64,000 nt of DNA from Aureimonas populi (lineage in GTDB: Bacteria; Pseudomonadota; Alphaproteobacteria; Rhizobiales; Rhizobiaceae): contig NZ_CP072611.1 of assembly GCF_017815515.1 (NCBI RefSeq), positions 3,162,001 through 3,226,000 of the forward strand, read 5' to 3'. Positions within the stretch are counted from its first letter, which is position 1, and the number at the start of each line of letters is the position of its first letter. Under the pieces are notes generated by a model that made no database searches, had not been told where the DNA came from, and was given only the letters and a program-made list of their open reading frames with translations. The position numbers and the translations under genes are program-made. This document shows positions 18,211 to 28,107 of the stretch, piece by piece.

Positions 18211-19038
18211 ATGATCCGAGTCGAACGATCCGCCCTGTCCTCCTACGCTTCCAGCCTGCTTGCTGCGGGCCAAGGGGTCTTTTCCGCAGACGAAGCGCAG
18301 AAGGCAATCGGCATCAGCCAGGGCGCATTCCTCGACGCCGCCGAGCGGTTGCAACGCCGCGGCCAGCTCATACGACCCCGGCGAGGCTTCTACGTGGTCG
18401 TGCCGCCTCAGCACGCCACGACGGGAGCGCCGCCACCGGAGTGGTATATCGACGCCCTGATGCGCCATGAAAAGCGACCCTACTATGTGGGGCTGCTGGC
18501 GGCAGCGGCGGCCCACGGAGCTTCCCATCAGGCCGTCATGGAGTTTCAGGTCATCACGAACAAGCTCCTGCCCGACATCGAGGCCGGACGGACGCGGATC
18601 GCCTTTTCCTATCGCAAGGACATGGCGACGGTGTCGGCGGGGATCGAGGATCGCAAGACGCAATCGGGCTATATGAAGCTGTCCTCGCCGGAGCTAACGG
18701 TGCTCGATCTGGTGCGCTACCCGCAATCCGGCGCGGGCCTGGACAACATTGCGACGGTGCTTTCCGAACTGGCCGAACGGCTGCAACCGGAAAAGCTCGC
18801 CTCCCTGTCGGGCGCTTTCGAGAAAGCGGTCGTGCAGCGCCTTGGACATCTTCTTAGAAGGCTGGGGCACCCGCAGATAGCTGAAGCAATGTTTGCCGCG
18901 CTGTCGGCGCGCGGCAAACTGCCGTGGGTCGAATTCGATCCTAAACAGGCGGGCGATCCTGATTTGTCGCCGCCGCCATCCGAACGCGATGACCGCTGGC
19001 GCGTGATCGTTCGCCGGCCGCCGGAGATCGACGAATGA
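18211..19038 (+). CDS. abiEi: AbiEi-family antitoxin
   Basis: A 275-residue type IV antitoxin of the AbiE system. Seen: an N-terminal winged helix (FSADEAQKAIGISQGAFLDAA, then RRGQLIRPRRGFYVVVP) and a C-terminal antitoxin domain with WYIDALMRHEKRPYYVGLL, GASHQAVMEFQV, SPELTVLDLVRYP. It represses its own promoter in known systems; matching inverted repeats lie upstream. Its stop overlaps the toxin start by 4 bases (ATGA at 19035), but the toxin gene is truncated, leaving an orphan antitoxin. Confidence 0.88.
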   Translation: MIRVERSALSSYASSLLAAGQGVFSADEAQKAIGISQGAFLDAAERLQRRGQLIRPRRGFYVVVPPQHATTGAPPPEWYIDALMRHEKRPYYVGLLAAAAAHGASHQAVMEFQVITNKLLPDIEAGRTRIAFSYRKDMATVSAGIEDRKTQSGYMKLSSPELTVLDLVRYPQSGAGLDNIATVLSELAERLQPEKLASLSGAFEKAVVQRLGHLLRRLGHPQIAEAMFAALSARGKLPWVEFDPKQAGDPDLSPPPSERDDRWRVIVRRPPEIDE

Positions 19039-19383
19039 TCCCGCAGGACTACATTACCGCCTGGAGCCGCGTCGCGCCGTGGGCAAGCCAGCGGCAGGTC
19101 GAGCAAGACCTCATCATCAGCCGCGCGCTCGTCGCCATCTTCTCCGATCCGTTCCTGCGCGGTGAACTGCGCTTCCGTGGCGGCACGGCGCTCAACAAGC
19201 TGCATTTCCCCGCGCCGCTGCGCTATTCGGAAGACATCGACCTTGTGCGGACGACGGCCGGTCCCATCAGACCGCTATTGGACCAAGGCCACCTTCGTCA
19301 GGGTGATGAACGAACTGATCGACCGGATACCCGGCGAAGAATGGGCGAAGGCCGGGGAAATGCGGGAGCGGTTTGGGGTCTAG
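19035..19383 (+). pseudogene. AbiEii nucleotidyltransferase toxin, truncated
   Basis: The N-terminal 85 residues are normal AbiEii: SQRQVEQDLIISRALVAIF, then motif I GGTALNKLHF and the catalytic-type RYSEDIDLV. After RTTAGPIRPLLDQ (near 19285) the sequence becomes nonsense in this frame, while the +1 frame shows an unrelated-looking end, YWTKATFVRVMNELIDRI to ERFGV, stop at 19383. Intact toxins are about 300 residues. A deletion joining two genes is the simplest reading; the toxin is presumably dead. Confidence 0.75.
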
Positions 19384-19533
19384 TCATCGTCGAATGCCTG
19401 CTTCCCTTTCACGGTCCAGACGCCGCCTTCTGCCAGAACACACTTCTGGCACAGTTCAATCACCATCCTGCCTGAAGCGCCCGCCCACCGGAAAGGTGTG
19501 CTCGACCCCGCCGCGCCACTTGACATTTCCGGC

Positions 19534-19563
19534 TTGTTAAGCATTGGCGCGCTATTGTAGAAT
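19534..19563 (+). promoter_or_regulatory. Candidate promoter of the hsd operon
   Basis: TTGTTA (19534-19539) and TAGAAT (19558-19563), 18 bases apart, 72 bases before the hsdM start. The region 19384-19635 is otherwise without a gene. Weak evidence by position and match only. Confidence 0.35.
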
Positions 19564-19635
19564 GCGTTAAGTCCGGTCGGGCCGAGGCGATCGTCGTCCC
19601 GATGCTCACTTCCGCGCGAATCGGCCAAAGGGTGG

Positions 19636-21675
19636 GTGATTTGCGTGGATCAGGCCGTAGCATCGAAGGCGAAAGTTCTATCGAATTTTGTTTGGCAGAT
19701 TGCCGAAACCCTTCGTGGTGACTTCAAGCAGTCGGAGTACGGCAAGGTTATCTTGCCCTTTGTTGTTCTGCGCCGCCTCGATTGCATCCTCGAACCCACC
19801 AAAGATGCCGTCCTGAAGGCTCATGCCGGATTGCCGCCCGGCATCGACGAACAAACCCGCGATATGATGCTGTATGGCGCCATCGGTGGTGGCATCCGCG
19901 TTTACAACACCAGCCCGCTGACATTTGCCAAAATCAGGGCGCAGAACCCGAGCGACGTTCACAAGAACCTAATTGCCTACATCACGGCCTTCTCGGACTC
20001 GGTTCGGGATGTATTTCTCGACAAGTTCCTCTTTACGGACCAACTGAAGCGGCTCGCCGACGCCACCATCCTATGGAAGGTGTTCGAGAAGTTCGCCGCG
20101 CTCGACCTGCGGCCGGAAGCCGTCTCCACGCTGGCGATGGGCTATCTGTTTGAAGACCTGATCCGCCGCTTCTCGGAAATCTCCAACGAAACCGCTGGCG
20201 AGCACTTCACGCCGCGCGAGGTGATCCGGCTGATCGTGGACCTCATCATCGTCAACGACGATGAAAAACTCCGGGGCCAAGGAATCATCCGGCAGATTTA
20301 CGACCCGGCGTGCGGCACAGGCGGGATGCTCGCGCTCGCAGAGGAAGCCCTGAAGGAGTTCAACCCCGATATCCGCGTCGAGCTTTTCGGCCAGGAGCTG
20401 AACGGCGAGTCCTTCGGCATCTGCAAGTCCGACATGCTGGTGACGGGCCACGACCCGGAAAACATCGCCTTCGGCAACACGCTGACGCAGGATGCCCACA
20501 AGGACCGGCGCTTTCACTACATGCTGTCCAATCCTCCCTATGGCGTGGATTGGAAAAAGTATCAGGAGCCGATCCGGGAGGAGGAGGCGACTCTGGGCAA
20601 GGACGGCCGCTACGGCGCAGGCCTGCCGCGCATCTCGGACGGCCAGCTTCTCTTTCTCCAGCATATGATTTCCAAGATGCGGACCGATGAGGTCGGTTCG
20701 CGCATCGGCATCGTCATGAACGGCTCGCCGCTCTTCACCGGCGGGGCCGGATCGGGCGAAAGCGAAATCCGCCGCTGGATGTTGGAAAACGACTGGATCG
20801 AGGCTATCGTCGCGCTACCGACCGATCTTTTCTACAACACCGGCATCCAAACCTATGTCTGGCTGCTGACCAACCGCAAGGAGCGGGAGCGGCGCGACAA
20901 GGTCCAACTCATCGACGCGTCGGGCGAACGGTTCTGGACACCCATGCGCAAGAGCCTTGGCTCGAAGCGCCGAGAAATCCGCGACGACGGGCGCGAGACC
21001 ATCACGCATATCTTCCACGAGATGGCGAACGGGGGTGGGCCGTGGAGCGCGGTGTCGAAGATTTTCGACGCCACTGATTTTGGCTATCGCGAGATCAGGG
21101 TCGAGCGGCCGCTCCGGCTGAATTTCCAGTCCAGCCCCGAACGCATCGAGCGGCTGAAGCTCGCCAAGGCGTTCCTGAAGCTGGACCCTGCCGACCAGGA
21201 TGACGTGTTGAACGTCATCGCCAATCGTCTGCCGACCACCCTGTTCAAGGAACGCCCTGCATTCGAGGCGGCCTTGACCAAGGCGCTCAAGGGCGCGGGC
21301 GTGAAGATCGGCGCACCGGTCAGAAAAGCCATCCTTTCCGCGCTGTCGGAGCGGGACGAAACTGCCGCCATCTGCCTCGATGGCGACGGTAAGCCGGAGC
21401 CGGACCCGGAACTGCGCGACCATGAGCTTGTGCCGCTCAAGACGGATTGGAAGTACTATGTCGCCCGCGAGGTGACGCCGTTCATGCCGGACGCATGGGT
21501 TGACGAGACCTATCGGGATAACGCCGACAAGGGCGTGGGCCGCGTCGGCTATGAGATCAATTTCAACCGCTACTTCTATCGCTATGTCGCGCCGCGCCCG
21601 CTGGCGGAGATCGACGCCGAGTTAAAGACGCTGGAGACGGACATCGCCAACCTCTTGAAGGAGGTGGCGGGATGA
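19636..21675 (+). CDS. hsdM: Type I restriction-modification methyltransferase subunit HsdM
   Basis: A 679-residue N6-adenine DNA methyltransferase, the modification subunit of a type I system. Seen: HsdM N-terminal helical domain (FVWQIAETLRGDFKQSEYGK), AGEHFTPREVIRLIVDLI, SAM motif I DPACGTGGML at about residue 223, catalytic motif IV NPPYGVDWKKY at about 299. The extra 150 residues at the C-terminus, compared with the common 500-530, match a longer HsdM subgroup. GTG at 19636 or 19645 is the start. Its stop overlaps hsdS by 4 bases. Confidence 0.95.
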   Translation: MICVDQAVASKAKVLSNFVWQIAETLRGDFKQSEYGKVILPFVVLRRLDCILEPTKDAVLKAHAGLPPGIDEQTRDMMLYGAIGGGIRVYNTSPLTFAKIRAQNPSDVHKNLIAYITAFSDSVRDVFLDKFLFTDQLKRLADATILWKVFEKFAALDLRPEAVSTLAMGYLFEDLIRRFSEISNETAGEHFTPREVIRLIVDLIIVNDDEKLRGQGIIRQIYDPACGTGGMLALAEEALKEFNPDIRVELFGQELNGESFGICKSDMLVTGHDPENIAFGNTLTQDAHKDRRFHYMLSNPPYGVDWKKYQEPIREEEATLGKDGRYGAGLPRISDGQLLFLQHMISKMRTDEVGSRIGIVMNGSPLFTGGAGSGESEIRRWMLENDWIEAIVALPTDLFYNTGIQTYVWLLTNRKERERRDKVQLIDASGERFWTPMRKSLGSKRREIRDDGRETITHIFHEMANGGGPWSAVSKIFDATDFGYREIRVERPLRLNFQSSPERIERLKLAKAFLKLDPADQDDVLNVIANRLPTTLFKERPAFEAALTKALKGAGVKIGAPVRKAILSALSERDETAAICLDGDGKPEPDPELRDHELVPLKTDWKYYVAREVTPFMPDAWVDETYRDNADKGVGRVGYEINFNRYFYRYVAPRPLAEIDAELKTLETDIANLLKEVAG

Positions 21676-23510
21676 GCTTCTGGTCAGCGAAAGAGACAAC
21701 GGAACTGAGGCCGCTCAAATACCTGGCGCGGTTCAATCCCGAAGTGTTGTCCGAGGATACAAACCCGGATTTCGAGTTCGACTATATCGACATTGGAGGC
21801 GTTACGCTCGAAGACGGTGTGCGCCACAAGGAGACAATGCGCTTTGAAACTGCGCCGAGCAGGGCGAGAAAGCCAGTCCGCTCGGGCGATGTGATCGTTT
21901 CCACCGTCCGAACATACCTCAAGGCCGTCGCCAGGATCGACGAAACCCATAACGGTGCAATCGTCTCCACCGGCTTCGCCGTGCTTCGACCGAACGCCGA
22001 TGTTGATGCGGGTTATCTCTATCGGCTTTGCCAAGCAAATGCCTTTGTCTCAGACGTAGAGGCCCGATCAACGGGCGTGAGCTATCCAGCGATCAACCCT
22101 TCGGCTCTTGCGGCGATCAAGGTTCCCTTTCCCGACCTCGCCACCCAGAAGGCCATTGCCGCCTTCCTCGACCGCGAAGCCGCCCGCATCGACAAGCTGA
22201 TCGCGAAGAAGGAGCGCCAAGTCGAACTTCTTCTTCAAAAATCAGCCAGTTGGCTTGACGATTTGACTTTTGGAGCGCGGACGGCCACGCCGGGTCAACT
22301 CGTCCCATTCAAGTGGATATGCAGAATCCCGAATGGTCAGGTTGATCCAACCGACCCCGACTGGGCTGATCTCCCACTTGTCGCTCCAAATCACATTGAG
22401 CAAGGAACCGGGCGCCTCCTCTACACCGAAACAGCTCGCGAGCAGGGTGCAGATAGTGGGAAATATGCGTTCCCTGCTGACACCGTTGTATACAGTAAGA
22501 TCAGACCTAATTTGGCCAAAGCGTGCATTGTGCCTCACGCAGGTCTGTGTAGCGCGGATATGTATCCCATCATTCCTGCCGCACGTTTGCGGCCAATGTT
22601 CCTGCTGATGCAGCTTCTTTCACGAAAGTTCACCGACTGGGCAACGACTGAGTCCATGCGTGTGGCGATGCCGAAAATAAATCGTGAGACAATCGGCACG
22701 TTCCGCCTTCTCGTGCCGCCGATTGAGATTCAGGATCAGGCCATCGGAACCTATCTGACAGTAAGAAAGTGCATTGAAGACGGCCGCGAGGCCATTATCC
22801 AATCGCTGTCCCTGCTGAGAGAACACCGCGCCGCCCTCATTACCGCAGCCGTCGCGGGCCAGATCGACATCCGCGAAAATCTGCCGGCCGTTACATCCAC
22901 GTCAGACCGGGACAGATTCCGCCTCGTCGTTGGAGCGGAGATCATCCACCGACTACCCGACAATCCGAAGCGCGCGCGAGTGAAGGTGCATAAGATCACC
23001 TACCTTGCCGAAACGCATCTCGGCATCGACGCGCTTCGGGGGAACTATCTCCGCGAGGCAGCGGGGCCGCTCGACCGTGCTTTGAGAGAAGAAACGGAAC
23101 GCAGCCTTGAAGCCGCAGGCTACTATCGAGCCAATCAGACGGATGGAACTGGCACCGCCGTTACTTATTCGCCGCTCGCGAAGGCTGGGCAGCACAAAGC
23201 TGAACTTGCCACCTTGTTAGGCTCCAAGGCCGAGGCGCTACGCAAACTGATCGCTATGCTCGCCGACCTTGACCGCCGCGCAACCGAAGCTGTCGCCACG
23301 CTCTACGCTGTCTGGAACGACGCCTTGATTGACGGCGAAACACCTGACGACGCAGCGATCATCAACGGTGTGCTGCACGAGTGGCATACAGAGAAGGGCG
23401 AGAAGTTCACCGCCGCCGACTTGAACATTTGGCTTGCATGGATGAGACGCCGTAACCTGATTCCGCGCGGCCAAGGGCCAAGAACAACAACTGGACGCTT
23501 GTTCGTGTGA
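21672..23510 (+). CDS. hsdS: Type I specificity subunit HsdS with C-terminal extension
   Basis: A 612-residue DNA-recognition subunit. Two target-recognition domains (about 1-155 and 210-355), each followed by a conserved helix: PDLATQKAIAAFLDREAARI with KLIAKKERQVELLLQK, and IQDQAIGTYLTVRK with LLREHRAALITAAVAGQIDI. Normal HsdS ends there near residue 400. About 210 further residues follow (from ENLPAVTSTSDRD), containing RVKVHKITYLAETHLGI and ADLNIWLAWMRRRNLIP, which I cannot assign. Translationally coupled to hsdM. The second recognition domain looks less GC-rich than its flanks, typical of domain exchange. Confidence 0.92.
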   Translation: MSFWSAKETTELRPLKYLARFNPEVLSEDTNPDFEFDYIDIGGVTLEDGVRHKETMRFETAPSRARKPVRSGDVIVSTVRTYLKAVARIDETHNGAIVSTGFAVLRPNADVDAGYLYRLCQANAFVSDVEARSTGVSYPAINPSALAAIKVPFPDLATQKAIAAFLDREAARIDKLIAKKERQVELLLQKSASWLDDLTFGARTATPGQLVPFKWICRIPNGQVDPTDPDWADLPLVAPNHIEQGTGRLLYTETAREQGADSGKYAFPADTVVYSKIRPNLAKACIVPHAGLCSADMYPIIPAARLRPMFLLMQLLSRKFTDWATTESMRVAMPKINRETIGTFRLLVPPIEIQDQAIGTYLTVRKCIEDGREAIIQSLSLLREHRAALITAAVAGQIDIRENLPAVTSTSDRDRFRLVVGAEIIHRLPDNPKRARVKVHKITYLAETHLGIDALRGNYLREAAGPLDRALREETERSLEAAGYYRANQTDGTGTAVTYSPLAKAGQHKAELATLLGSKAEALRKLIAMLADLDRRATEAVATLYAVWNDALIDGETPDDAAIINGVLHEWHTEKGEKFTAADLNIWLAWMRRRNLIPRGQGPRTTTGRLFV

Positions 23511-23520
23511 GGTGATTTCG

Positions 23521-24237
23521 ATGAAGCAATTCCATGGGACCATTGAAGAGCTGAAGGCATTGATCGAAACCTGCGGATTGGCCGGAGAGTGGTCGGAAAG
23601 GCCCGAAAACGGCTTGCACTGCTACCGGGCCAAGACTGGCGAAATACTTAACTGGTGGCCTTCAAAGGGGACCGTGCAGATTCAGGGTAAAAACCCGGAT
23701 GATTTTCGCGATAAGCTCGCGAGTGCTTCAGGTGCTCCGATTACGCCAAAACCAGTCTCCACCACGGCCACCGCAAAGATTTTCCTTGTTCATGGGCATG
23801 ATCGAGAAGCCCGCGACCAGCTTGAATTGGTGTTGATGCGCCTTGGGCTTCAGCCCTTTATCCTTCAGAATGCAGACGGAGGCAGCAAGACGATCATTGA
23901 GGCGCTGGAGCAGCATATCTACGAAGAAGCTGCCTTCGGCATCGTTCTTTTGACGCCCGATGACTTCGGCTACCCAAAGACGAAAGGCGAAGCGGACAGA
24001 CAGCCTCGCGCTCGACAGAACGTAATTCTTGAAATGGGAATGATCATGGCGGCGCTCGGTCGCGCACGCATGGTGATCCTGAAAAAGGGAGCGCTCGAAT
24101 TGCCGTCAGATGCGAACGGAATTCTCTACATTGAGTTCAACGACCATGTGCGCGAGATCGTCCCAAAACTAGCCCAGCGCCTCCAAGGAGGTGGATTTCA
24201 GATCGACCCAGCCAAGATTGCGGCGGCGTCAGCATGA
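23521..24237 (+). CDS. TIR-like nucleotide-binding protein (PF10137 type) inside the hsd operon
   Basis: A 238-residue protein. Residues 1-70 form a small domain with [15 protein letters not shown], reminiscent of a TBP-like fold (inference). Residues 86-225 are a TIR-like domain of the predicted nucleotide-binding/CAP12-TIR family: IFLVHGHD (87-94), [12 protein letters not shown] with E127 as candidate NADase glutamate, [13 protein letters not shown] (139-151), [11 protein letters not shown] (163-173) and [14 protein letters not shown]. It starts 10 bases after hsdS, with a GAGGTGAT ribosome binding site, and overlaps hsdR by 4 bases, so it is an integral operon gene. Relatives deplete NAD(P) during phage defence; here it may act when restriction fails. 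That role is inference. Confidence 0.85.
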
Positions 24238-27200
24238 ATTACGAACAGCCATCTATCTCCCACCCTTACGCCAAGGGATTTTACGAAGACAACGTCCACC
24301 GGGAGGAAGTGCTGGAGGTTCATCTGTGCAAGGCGCTGGTGGAACACCAAGGTTATCGTTCGCGCCGTCCCGAGAACTATGACCGCGCCTCCGCGCTCGA
24401 CAAGACCCTGGTGATCGAGTTCGTCAAGGCGACGCAACCTGACGAATGGGCGAAGCTGGAAGGCCATTACGGTCCTTCCGCCGAAACCGAGTTCTTCAAG
24501 CAGCTTGAGCAGGGATTGAAGCAGCGCGGCACGTTGGATGTGTTGCGCAACGGGCTGAAGCTGGTTCCAAGCCTGAAGTTCTTCCTTGCCGCCTTCAAAC
24601 CGGCGTCCGGCGTCAACCCGGCTTTGGTGGCACTGTTCGAGAGCAATATCCTCAGCGTCATCAATCAGTTCCGCTACAGCGCGAAGAACGAGAACGCTAT
24701 AGACGTGGGATTGTTCGTCAACGGCTTGCCCGTGGCGACGCTGGAACTGAAGAATACCCTGACCGGCCAGAATTTCCGTCATGCCGAGCGCCAGTATCGC
24801 CATGATCGAGCGCCCGCCAATGAACCTCTGCTGACGTTCAAGCGAGGGGCCTTGGTCCATTTCGCGGTGGATCAGGACAACGTGTCCATGACCACCCGCC
24901 TACAGAACGGCAAGACCCGGTTCCTGCCCTTCAATCGTGGGCATGATGGCGGCGCGGGTAACCCGGATGTCGACGGGGAGTTTCGCGTTGCCTATCTCTG
25001 GGCCGACCAGCCCGAAGGGCGGGCGATTTTCTCCCGCGAAATCCTTCTGGATATCATCGGGCGGTTTCTCCACCTCGACGGCACGAACGGCAAGGAAGCG
25101 CTGATCTTTCCGCGTTTCCATCAGATCGACGCGGTTCTGAAAATGCTGGCCCATGCCCGCGTCAACGGTAGTGGCAACAACTATCTGATCCAGCATTCGG
25201 CGGGATCGGGAAAATCCAACACGATCGCCTGGACGGCGCATCGGCTGGTGACGCTGCACGATCCGTCCGACCAGCCGATTTTCGACACCGCGATCGTGGT
25301 GACGGATCGCGTCGTTCTCGACCGCCAGCTTCAGAATACCATTGCCCAGTTCGAGCAGACGCCCGGCGTCGTCCGCAAGATCGACGGAACCTCACGGCAG
25401 TTGAAGGCGGCGATCGAGGGGCAGGCGAAGATCATCATCACCACGATCCAGAAGTTTTCGACCGAGCATCTTCGCGTCATCAGTGGACAGGGAACGCGGC
25501 GGTTCGCCGTGCTGATCGACGAGGCGCATGGTTCTCAGTCCGGCAAGAGCGCCCAGGCGTTAAGCGACGCCCTCAGCCGCGATGAAGAGGCCGGGACGCC
25601 CGATGAGATCGAAGTCTTGATCGCGGAATACCAACGCCAACGTGGCCCGCAGGCGAACATCAGTTACTTCGCCTTCACGGCGACGCCCCGCAACGTCACG
25701 CTTGAGCGTTTCGGCTCGACCGGCACGGACGGCCTCCCGCATCCGTTTCACCTCTATTCCATGCGGCAGGCAATCGAGGAGGGTTTCATCCTGGACGTGC
25801 TTCAGAACTATATGACCTACAAGGCGTATTACGCCCTGGAAAAGACTATCGACGATGACCCCGAACTGGATACGCGCCGCGCGCAACGGAAAGTCGCACG
25901 GTTCGCGGCCCTGCACCCGACCGCCCTGAGCCAGAAGGTCGAGGTGATGGTCGAGCATTTCCAGCGCCATGTCAGGCCGGAACTGGATGGCCAGGCGAAG
26001 GCCATGATCGTGACCTCAAGCCGGGAAAGCGCCCTTCGCTATTATTTCGCGCTCAAGACCTACATCGAAGACAAGGGATATAGCGACCTCAGGGCGCTCA
26101 CCGCCTTCTCCGGCGAGTTGCACGTCGATGGCAATACCTACACCGAGGCTGAGTTGAACGGATTCGGCGAAAGCGAGTTGCCCAAGCGCTTCGATACCCC
26201 GGAATATCAAATCCTCATCGTCGCGGAGAAATATCAGACCGGCTTTGACCAGCCGAAATTGTCCGGGATGTATATCGACAAGAAGCTGGCGGGGTTGCAG
26301 GCGGTCCAGACCCTGTCCCGGCTGAACAGGATTTACCAAGGTAAGGAACGAACCTTCATCCTCGATTTCCAGAACACGATGGATGATATCAAGGAAGCGT
26401 TCCGCCCCTTCTACGAGGTATCCAGCCTCGAAGCGGTTTCAGACAAGAACCAGATCTATCAGTTGGAGACGCGCATCCGTACGTTCGGCTATCTCGACAG
26501 CAGCGAGATCGAGCGATTTGCCACGACCTTCTTCAAGGGAACGCTGGCCACTCAGGATCGCGTAACGCTGGAATCTCTGGTCCGCAACGCCGTGGCGCGG
26601 TTTGAAGCCGAGGACGACGAAGGCCGGCAGGAAGAGTTCAGGCAGCTTTTGAGAAGCTACAAGCGGTTCTACAGCTTCGTCGCGCAAATTGTCCGGCTGG
26701 GAGATACCAGCTTGGAAAAGCTCTATGCCTACACCGACTGGCTGGACCGGATGTTGCCCAATCGGGAACAACCGCCGGAAGTCGAGATCACGGATGAAAT
26801 GCTGCGCCTGCGCGCTTTCCGCGTTCAACAGAAAGAAGTTGGCTCCGCGTCGCTTGCAGCGGGCGACACCGTGCCGCTCACCGCGATCAGTGAATTTGGG
26901 GCCAAGCCCTATACTGAAGATGAAGCGAAGGCTCTTTCGGAGATTGTCCGGTCCTTCAATGACCGGCACGGGACGCAGTTCACGGAAGAGGATTTCATCC
27001 GCCTCGAACAGGTGAAGCGCAAGGCGCTTGATGAGGAAATGGCGGCGGTGTTGCGGAACAATCCGCCCGATGTCTCCCGCCCGACCTTCGTGCGCCGCCT
27101 TCTCGAAGAGACGATCAAGCAATATCAGCGCGACAGCAGCCTTCAAAGCATCATCATGACGAATGCAGAAGATCGCGATCGCATCTTCAACCACCTCTTC

Positions 27201-27242
27201 AGCCGGGCCTTGCGCGAGGTGCGCGAAACACAAATACCCTGA
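24234..27242 (+). CDS. hsdR: Type I restriction endonuclease subunit HsdR
   Basis: A 1002-residue ATP-dependent translocase/nuclease. N-terminal nuclease region with VDVGL-like strand and LELKN (residues near 170), Walker A SAGSGKSN at about 322, DEAH box at about 429, motif III AFTATP, and C-terminal helicase motifs including [20 protein letters not shown] and [10 protein letters not shown]. All motifs are intact, so the enzyme should be active. It is coupled to the TIR-like gene by an ATGA overlap. The three subunits together cut unmodified DNA at a distance from the HsdS site. Confidence 0.95.
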
Positions 27243-27323
27243 TACAGGTTGCTCTTGCACGGCGTTGCCACGCGATGGAGGGCAGCCGCCTGTCCGACGA
27301 TTCCGTGCCAAAACCGGGCGCAC

Positions 27324-28107
27324 TCATTGAGCGTCGGGTTTTATGGGATAATGCAACAAGAGACGATAACCGCCCCGCATCATCTTGATGCCGTGGGCGA
27401 CGAGGCGACGGGCCTTGTTCTTGCGCGGATCGACTTCCCAATCCTGCTTGGTGCCGCTGAATCCGAGCAGCACTTCGGCGATGGTGCGATAGCTCGCGCC
27501 GTGCAGCCGTGCATCCAGGGCGCGTAGCGACAGCATGTGCCATTGCCGGAGCTGGTCGGGCATGACCCGAAACTCCGGCCCCGGTCGGCGGCCTTCGACG
27601 GAGCGCCAGAACCGCCGGGCGGCATGTGATCGCAGTTCGTAGAAGGCATCCAACGGCAGGAACGTGCCGTAGAAAGCCGTGGTGTCAGGAGCGGCACGGG
27701 GCAGCCACAATTGATGCGCGATGCCATCGGCCCGCCAGACGCCGTGCCAGCCATCGGCCGCGCGGCGCAGGTCGAAGCCGTCGAGATGGGCGAGCTTGAT
27801 CGTCGGACCACTGGCGTCGGTTATATGCGCGACAGGCAACAGCATGAAGGTATTCGGATGCACGCGCGGCGACCAGAGCGGAGCTTGCAAATCAGCCGCC
27901 GTGTCGGGGTCGCTTGGGAAAGAGCAAACCCCAGCGGTCCGCAAACGATTCCAGTTGTTCCGCGTCCTGCCTGCGGGCCAGCGCCAGCGTCTGGTAGTCA
28001 TGGCGATAATCGTCGTTGCGGCGCAGATATTCCCAAGCGAAACCGGAAGCGGCAAGCTGCCATATGTACCCGTAGGCCGCATGGTGCCACCATTCGATAT
28101 TCAGCAT
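27324..28107 (-). CDS. DUF6499/DUF2285 regulator split by a +1 frameshift (FseA-like)
   Basis: First frame, 28107-27892 (71 residues), starts MLNIEWWHHAAYGYIWQLAA and is a DUF6499 domain ending WGLLFPKRPRHGG, stop. The second frame, down to 27324, continues as PSDPDTAADLQAPLW and is a DUF2285 domain (PEFRVMPDQLRQWHMLSLRA, LLGFSGTKQDWEVDPRKNKA). Relatives carry both domains in one chain with WGLxF..DPD at the joint, so shifting +1 at CTC TTT CCC (27921-27916) restores the full 260-residue protein; tRNA-Phe can re-pair from TTT to TTC. In ICEMlSym the excision activator FseA is made in just this way. Alternative: an ordinary one-base mutation. Confidence 0.75.

Follow-up and report, generated by a model that had tools for sequence, protein, structure and literature searches.

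The window analysed here, a stretch of 64,000 nucleotides from Aureimonas populi (contig NZ_CP072611.1), carries a type I restriction-modification (R-M) operon in which a gene for a TIR-like protein stands between hsdS and hsdR. The four genes lie co-directionally on the + strand in the order hsdM-hsdS-TIR-hsdR and, on the basis of open reading frames (ORFs) and Pfam matches, make up a single unit:

19636..21675, + strand: hsdM, type I DNA methyltransferase (GTG start, 679 amino acids; Pfam N6_Mtase 1.3e-57, HsdM_N 1.4e-24; PADLOC MTase_I 1.8e-265)
21672..23510, + strand: hsdS, specificity subunit (612 amino acids; Pfam Methylase_S 8e-14; PADLOC Specificity_I 3.1e-68)
23521..24237, + strand: TIR cassette gene of the PDC-S35 family (238 amino acids; PF10137 8.3e-34; PADLOC PDC-S35 6.3e-101)
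24234..27242, + strand: hsdR, restriction and translocation subunit (1002 amino acids; HSDR_N 1.5e-14, SWI2_SNF2 2.5e-25, T1R_D3-like)

The hsdM and hsdS genes overlap by 4 bases, 10 bases separate hsdS from the TIR gene, and the stop of the TIR gene overlaps the hsdR ATG by 4 bases; the TIR gene is read from the ATG at 23521, the mechanical ORF opening earlier, at a GTG at 23512. An earlier, sequence-only reading of the window had described the four genes as one unit with this spacing, and that observation is confirmed. Pfam and PADLOC matches for hsdM, hsdS and hsdR show the R-M set to be complete (hsdR also matches TIGR00348 with E 1.4e-60, under that model's cut-off), and the TIR gene is a module set between the subunit genes of this otherwise complete defence operon. 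Type I methylation and restriction are predicted for the operon.

The joint between hsdS and hsdR is an exchange site. HsdR was sought across the window's order, in 297 genomes that include the window's own, and 23 of them gave a match at E <= 1e-100. Wide stretches were analysed for 20 of the 23 HsdR places outside the window; two of these (L108 and L123) were not walkable, leaving 18 operons. The other three places are known from short stretches: L102 has its hsdS directly upstream of hsdR, and in L101 and L103 hsdS was not recognisable. The closest relatives define the slot and one family of its alternative occupants:

19513..27289, + strand: hsd unit common to the window and L105, about 90-92% identical in long pieces
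23490..24232, + strand: exchange slot; blastn similarity to the TIR-less L105 ends at 23489 and restarts at 24233, one base ahead of the hsdR ATG
L105:6733-7353, L002:10717-11307 and L106:8271-8888: HEPN-like family of about 200 amino acids

What the window and L105 do not have in common is the slot and most of the target-recognition part of hsdS. The L105 genome (G050), with HsdM 94% and HsdR 95% identical to those of the window, has a 206-codon, weakly HEPN-like gene in place of the TIR gene. In MKVW01000001 (L002), where HsdR is 96% and the TIR protein 76% identical, the TIR gene is followed by a HEPN-like gene (a relative at 53% identity) and then by hsdR. In G265 (L106; HsdR 87% identical) the slot holds a HEPN-like gene that shares 86% identity with its L105 counterpart, and an Mrr_cat gene (PDC-S02). 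Beside HsdR proteins of 87-96% identity the same position is therefore filled by TIR, by TIR plus HEPN-like, by HEPN-like, or by HEPN-like plus Mrr genes. These four close operons constitute a natural experiment on cassette exchange at the hsdS-hsdR joint. The HEPN-like label is a weak one (E 0.019 and 15.5 bits against a cut-off of 22 for the L105 copy), and the L105 copy has no PADLOC match; the family is a possible unlisted defence candidate.

Elsewhere in the order the slot carries other cargo:

L107: Mrr_cat
L109: Septu PtuA/PtuB
L111, L119: DUF4268
L112: Fic
L113: DUF4357 (matched on L113; L115 and L118 are so named from near-identical first 60 residues)
L117: an unassigned 488-codon gene
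L110: a 195-codon gene plus TIR

In the 18 operons with hsdS upstream of hsdR, cargo lies between the two genes in 12 and is absent from 6. The gene walk from hsdS to hsdR was complete in 15 of the 18 and halted at a gap of more than 40 bases in L110, L112 and L117. Nine of the 12 cargo-bearing operons have a 4-base overlap between hsdS and the first cargo gene, a type of joint that the walk prefers wherever an ORF of at least 100 codons permits. These slot counts are lower bounds and small cargo may have been missed, since the gene caller overlooked the HEPN-like genes of L105 and L106, which were recovered by DNA comparison and tblastn. A Pfam-recognised GmrSD_N gene lies between hsdM and hsdS in L122 (L122:5278-7074), so the M-S joint also accepts cargo; in another locus the TIR gene is followed by a gene whose first residues are almost the same (L019:10723-12534).

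That the hsdS-hsdR joint receives defence modules is already known. DarTG2 of E. coli EPEC lies between hsdS and hsdR, a joint termed a potential recombination hotspot (PMC12255303); TgvAB sits in the type I operon of V. cholerae VPI-2 and protects independently of the restriction activity of HsdR (PMC11411939). Both are second defence modules embedded in a type I R-M operon, and DarTG2 occupies the very joint used in the window. The effectors differ, being a toxin-antitoxin pair and a type IV restriction system, respectively, whereas the cargo of the window is a TIR protein.

The TIR protein is itself an already catalogued defence candidate, because PADLOC-DB of 2023 contains a full-length model for it, PDC-S35 (PDLC05003), to which residues 1-237 align over profile positions 1-244 of 245 (E 6.3e-101); the sequence-only reading had known of no described system of this exact order, and the view that nothing of the kind has been described is not supported. 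The PDC names reportedly stem from a 2024 survey by Payne et al. of genes embedded in defence systems. In the literature searched we found neither the term PDC-S35 nor a domain reading or mechanism for it, nor a description of a trigger for catalogued TIR candidates of this type. Across 385 genomes of the class, eight match PDC-S35 at E <= 1e-30, full length only in the window's own; the full architecture is rare in this sample, for the other seven match from profile position 54 or later.

To place the TIR gene among its relatives, contigs of GTDB genomes were scanned with a 32-sequence alignment made up of the window protein and 31 relatives. This confirmed 273 relatives, the best 80 of which, at 79 loci, enter the counts. 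Surrounding hsd genes were sought by profile search, using hidden Markov models grown from the window's own Hsd proteins, and the hsd counts are lower bounds because distant Hsd proteins may be missed. The search for PF10137 genes between hsdS and hsdR in other genomes, as the sequence-only reading had proposed, found the arrangement to recur and to be no accident: at 22 of the 79 loci the TIR relative is preceded by hsdM/hsdS and followed by hsdR, all on one strand. In one further locus (L028) it lies between hsdR and hsdM/hsdS, in the order R, TIR, M, S; three are flanked by an hsd gene on a single side, and at 53 no hsd gene was recognised within 7 kb, both flanks reaching that distance in 29 and not in 24. 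The 23 embedded loci span five phyla (Pseudomonadota, Armatimonadota, Verrucomicrobiota, Planctomycetota and Bacteroidota). Two of them, L077 and L080, both from Bacteroidota, carry another N-terminal domain, as similarity begins only at residue 79.

Among the loci lacking recognised hsd genes are twelve from Bartonella (L038, L044-L053 and L055), most of which have neighbouring ORFs of comparable length (roughly 177, 387 and 220 codons). A gene for a 195-amino-acid protein directly precedes the TIR gene in L010, L011, L012 and L018; its copy in L110 (L110 and L011 seem to be one and the same operon) shows weak similarity to PD-T4-4_B and PDC-M47B of PADLOC.

Relatives are also found on mobile elements. 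Three of 50,697 phage records, all E. coli phages, match over 97% of the query (residues 9-238) at 49% identity, and in the one that was opened the relative directly follows a DNA polymerase gene. Nearly full-length genes of this kind are:

L138:5956-6717 and L140:8001-8762: TIR relative of an E. coli phage that also occurs in E. coli chromosomes, beside an integrase gene

The phage gene is present at >= 95% identity in 36 of 5,426 E. coli genomes. In one E. coli chromosome that was opened it stands near an integrase gene amid phage-like genes, and no annotated hsd genes occur in the 16.8 kb shown around it. Of 72,556 plasmid records 1,121 match at E <= 1e-15, only four of them over at least 80% of the query; a scan of viral contigs with the single TIR protein gave three pattern matches and no relative.

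The association of the TIR gene with its operon was quantified in two ways. When the 43 HsdR proteins of a tree are labelled for the presence of TIR in their operon, the label requires nine changes, eight of them forced by well-supported branches. Shuffled labels require 14.3 changes on average, and none of 500 shufflings needed as few as nine; the label is therefore also inherited within clades, and two clades of six rows each are entirely TIR-bearing. The sample was picked for TIR and for similarity to the window's HsdR and thus shows repeated gain or loss, not frequencies; the positions of L028, L007 and L040 are unsure because of very long branches, and so above all is the HsdR call of L028. 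The second measure compared pairwise identities in 18 of 24 operons (the 23 embedded loci and the window), L077 and L080 being excluded for their other N-terminal domain and four more because an HsdM, HsdR or TIR ORF of sufficient length was lacking. TIR identity follows HsdR identity less closely (Spearman 0.46) than does HsdM identity (0.83). At the extreme, the TIR proteins of the window and L007 are 56% identical, alongside HsdR and HsdM proteins of 20% and 22% identity.

The TIR protein has two parts:

23521..23742, + strand: N-terminal domain, residues 1-74, predicted TBP-like (helix, four strands, helix), with conserved N44-W45-W46 and Q55-G56
23776..24141, + strand: TIR domain, residues 86-207, in which R165, N167, E171 and D197 match the NAD pocket of TIR-STING
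24031..24033, + strand: codon of E171, the predicted catalytic glutamate, E in 77 of 77 aligned sequences (the window and 76 of the 79 loci)

The PF10137 assignment made by the sequence-only reading is borne out, with 116.6 bits against a curated cut-off of 24.7 in Pfam, and the motifs it quoted are present in the translation. The pocket is made up as in SfSTING, where R, N and E come from the same chain and D from its partner, corresponding to R165, N167, E171 and D197. E171, within RQNVILEMG, is the counterpart of the catalytic E84 of TIR-STING; E127, for which an alanine control had been suggested, is not. The active site is intact and of the NADase type, and NAD+ hydrolysis is predicted. 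Of the two activities proposed earlier, NAD+ cleavage stands in this predicted form and cyclic-nucleotide binding finds no support: the match is to an enzymatic TIR domain, Pfam finds no STING domain in the protein, and the NCBIfam equivalog models for Cap12, whose cut-offs are 450, give 29.6 and 27 bits, on which ground we set aside a Cap12/STING-type ligand receptor. The likeness to TIR-STING (CBASS Cap12) lies in the PF10137 domain and its NAD-pocket residues; in place of STING the protein of the window has an N-terminal domain that looks TBP-like.

Residues 1-74, aligned for the window and 40 loci chosen from the 79 (alignment A2), resemble a TBP-like domain akin to RnlA and to the domain with which RNase H3 binds RNA/DNA hybrids, on lines of evidence each weak alone. 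In a profile alignment the kept motif (an aromatic residue at 45, and Q55-G56) coincides with the hybrid-contact region of RNase H3. The Pfam family of the RNase HIII N-terminal domain, DUF3378, does not match the window protein and matches one of the 41 N-terminal domains at E 0.034, below the cut-off; a PDB sequence search with the domain profile gave five weak and unrelated matches only. The RNase HIII family has no member in the window's own genome, and RnlA_toxin had no match in 240 genomes of the class, a search in which no positive control matched either. HEPN toxins of the RNase LS family, the kin of RnlA, carry a TBP-like domain similar to the one in RNase HIII, which has been interpreted as directing them to RNA within DNA-RNA duplexes (PMC3710099). 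The likeness is the fusion of a toxin domain to a TBP-like domain; the effector differs, RNase in the one case and TIR in the other, and the kinship of the N-terminal domains rests on weak scores.

How might such a protein act? With moderate confidence we read the TIR gene as an autonomous abortive-infection cassette lodged in the hsdS-hsdR joint, encoding an NADase with a nucleic-acid-sensing TBP-like N-terminal domain. The hsd operon would provide coupled expression and a first line of defence; the cassette would be a second line, swappable for other cargo. The N-terminal domain would be the sensor, binding some form of nucleic acid that arises in phage infection, and binding would gather the TIR domains, which would then hydrolyse NAD+ to the point of its destruction. 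The most specific candidate ligand is an RNA/DNA hybrid. Gene order, cassette exchange, the conserved active site and the predicted folds are what the data show; NADase activity, the sensing of nucleic acid and protection against phages are inferences. More tentatively, the protein may be a one-protein immune receptor for the hybrids formed as R-loops and primers in phage replication and transcription, on a cassette traded between restriction operons and prophages. If the domain does bind hybrids, the question of the trigger reduces to an NADase assay alongside a gel shift, and an NAD-depleting receptor would prove to share a domain with RNase H3 and RNase LS-type toxins.

Somewhat unlikely is an autonomous cassette of another kind, in which the N-terminal domain serves for oligomerisation or protein binding and a phage protein is the trigger; the coincidence of the kept motif with the hybrid-contact region argues against it. 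Unlikely, too, is the guard that the sequence-only reading had proposed, and the interpretation given there is as a whole only partly supported. On the guard view, the R-M complex keeps the TIR protein inactive until restriction is blocked by a phage inhibitor, for example Ocr. The tight packing of the genes and the retention of TIR throughout some HsdR clades speak for such a guard, as does the precedent of PrrC in the PrrI operon, an ABC-ATPase/HEPN anticodon nuclease that is kept inactive by its R-M partner (PMC3710099). The likeness to PrrC is that of an additional effector gene inside an hsd operon; with PF10137 the sole domain found in the TIR protein by Pfam, and neither ABC-ATPase nor HEPN nuclease, kinship with PrrC was set aside. 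The guard of a given HsdR should not swap freely, adjoin unrelated HsdR proteins or sit in prophages. The slot, however, is filled by unrelated genes beside HsdR proteins of 87-96% identity, TIR identity follows HsdR only loosely and persists beside the divergent Hsd proteins of L007, the order in L028 is R, TIR, M, S, and some homologues, among them that of an E. coli prophage, have no recognised hsd genes beside them.

Quite unlikely is a Thoeris-like scheme in which the TIR domain makes a signal of the cyclic ADP-ribose type that a separate effector receives. Some bacterial TIR domains make such signals (PMC13142454), but the hsd-operon proteins scanned include no recognisable effector of this sort, the rest of the genome not having been searched for effectors, and the TIR gene is alone in the slot in at least four operons (the window, L003, L016 and L036). 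That the N-terminal domain guides the TIR domain to NAD-capped transcripts for decapping is very unlikely: some TIR proteins take nicotinamide off NAD-RNA (PMC10937652), and the domain resembles a nucleic-acid binder, but nothing specific points to it and the PF10137 relative TIR-STING acts on free NAD+ (PMC9402430).

Some features of the operon and its surroundings deserve mention. HsdS has a C-terminal extension of about 196 residues (about 417-612; window 22920-23510) with no Pfam family over cut-off; it resembles C-terminal parts of some PADLOC type I models and is present too in L002, L105 and L106. A tie between TIR and this extension was rejected, for the HsdS of L003, at 419 amino acids, is too short to have it and TIR is nonetheless present. 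Upstream (window 18211-19475) an AbiEi antitoxin gene is intact and AbiEii matches over residues 1-84 of 260 only, with no further match to the model PDLC02294 in the window's genome; the break in AbiEii sits just upstream of 19513, the left limit of the hsd unit common to the window and L105. Directly downstream of hsdR, on the opposite strand (window 27324-28082, - strand), lies an ORF with a match to the RovC DNA-binding domain.

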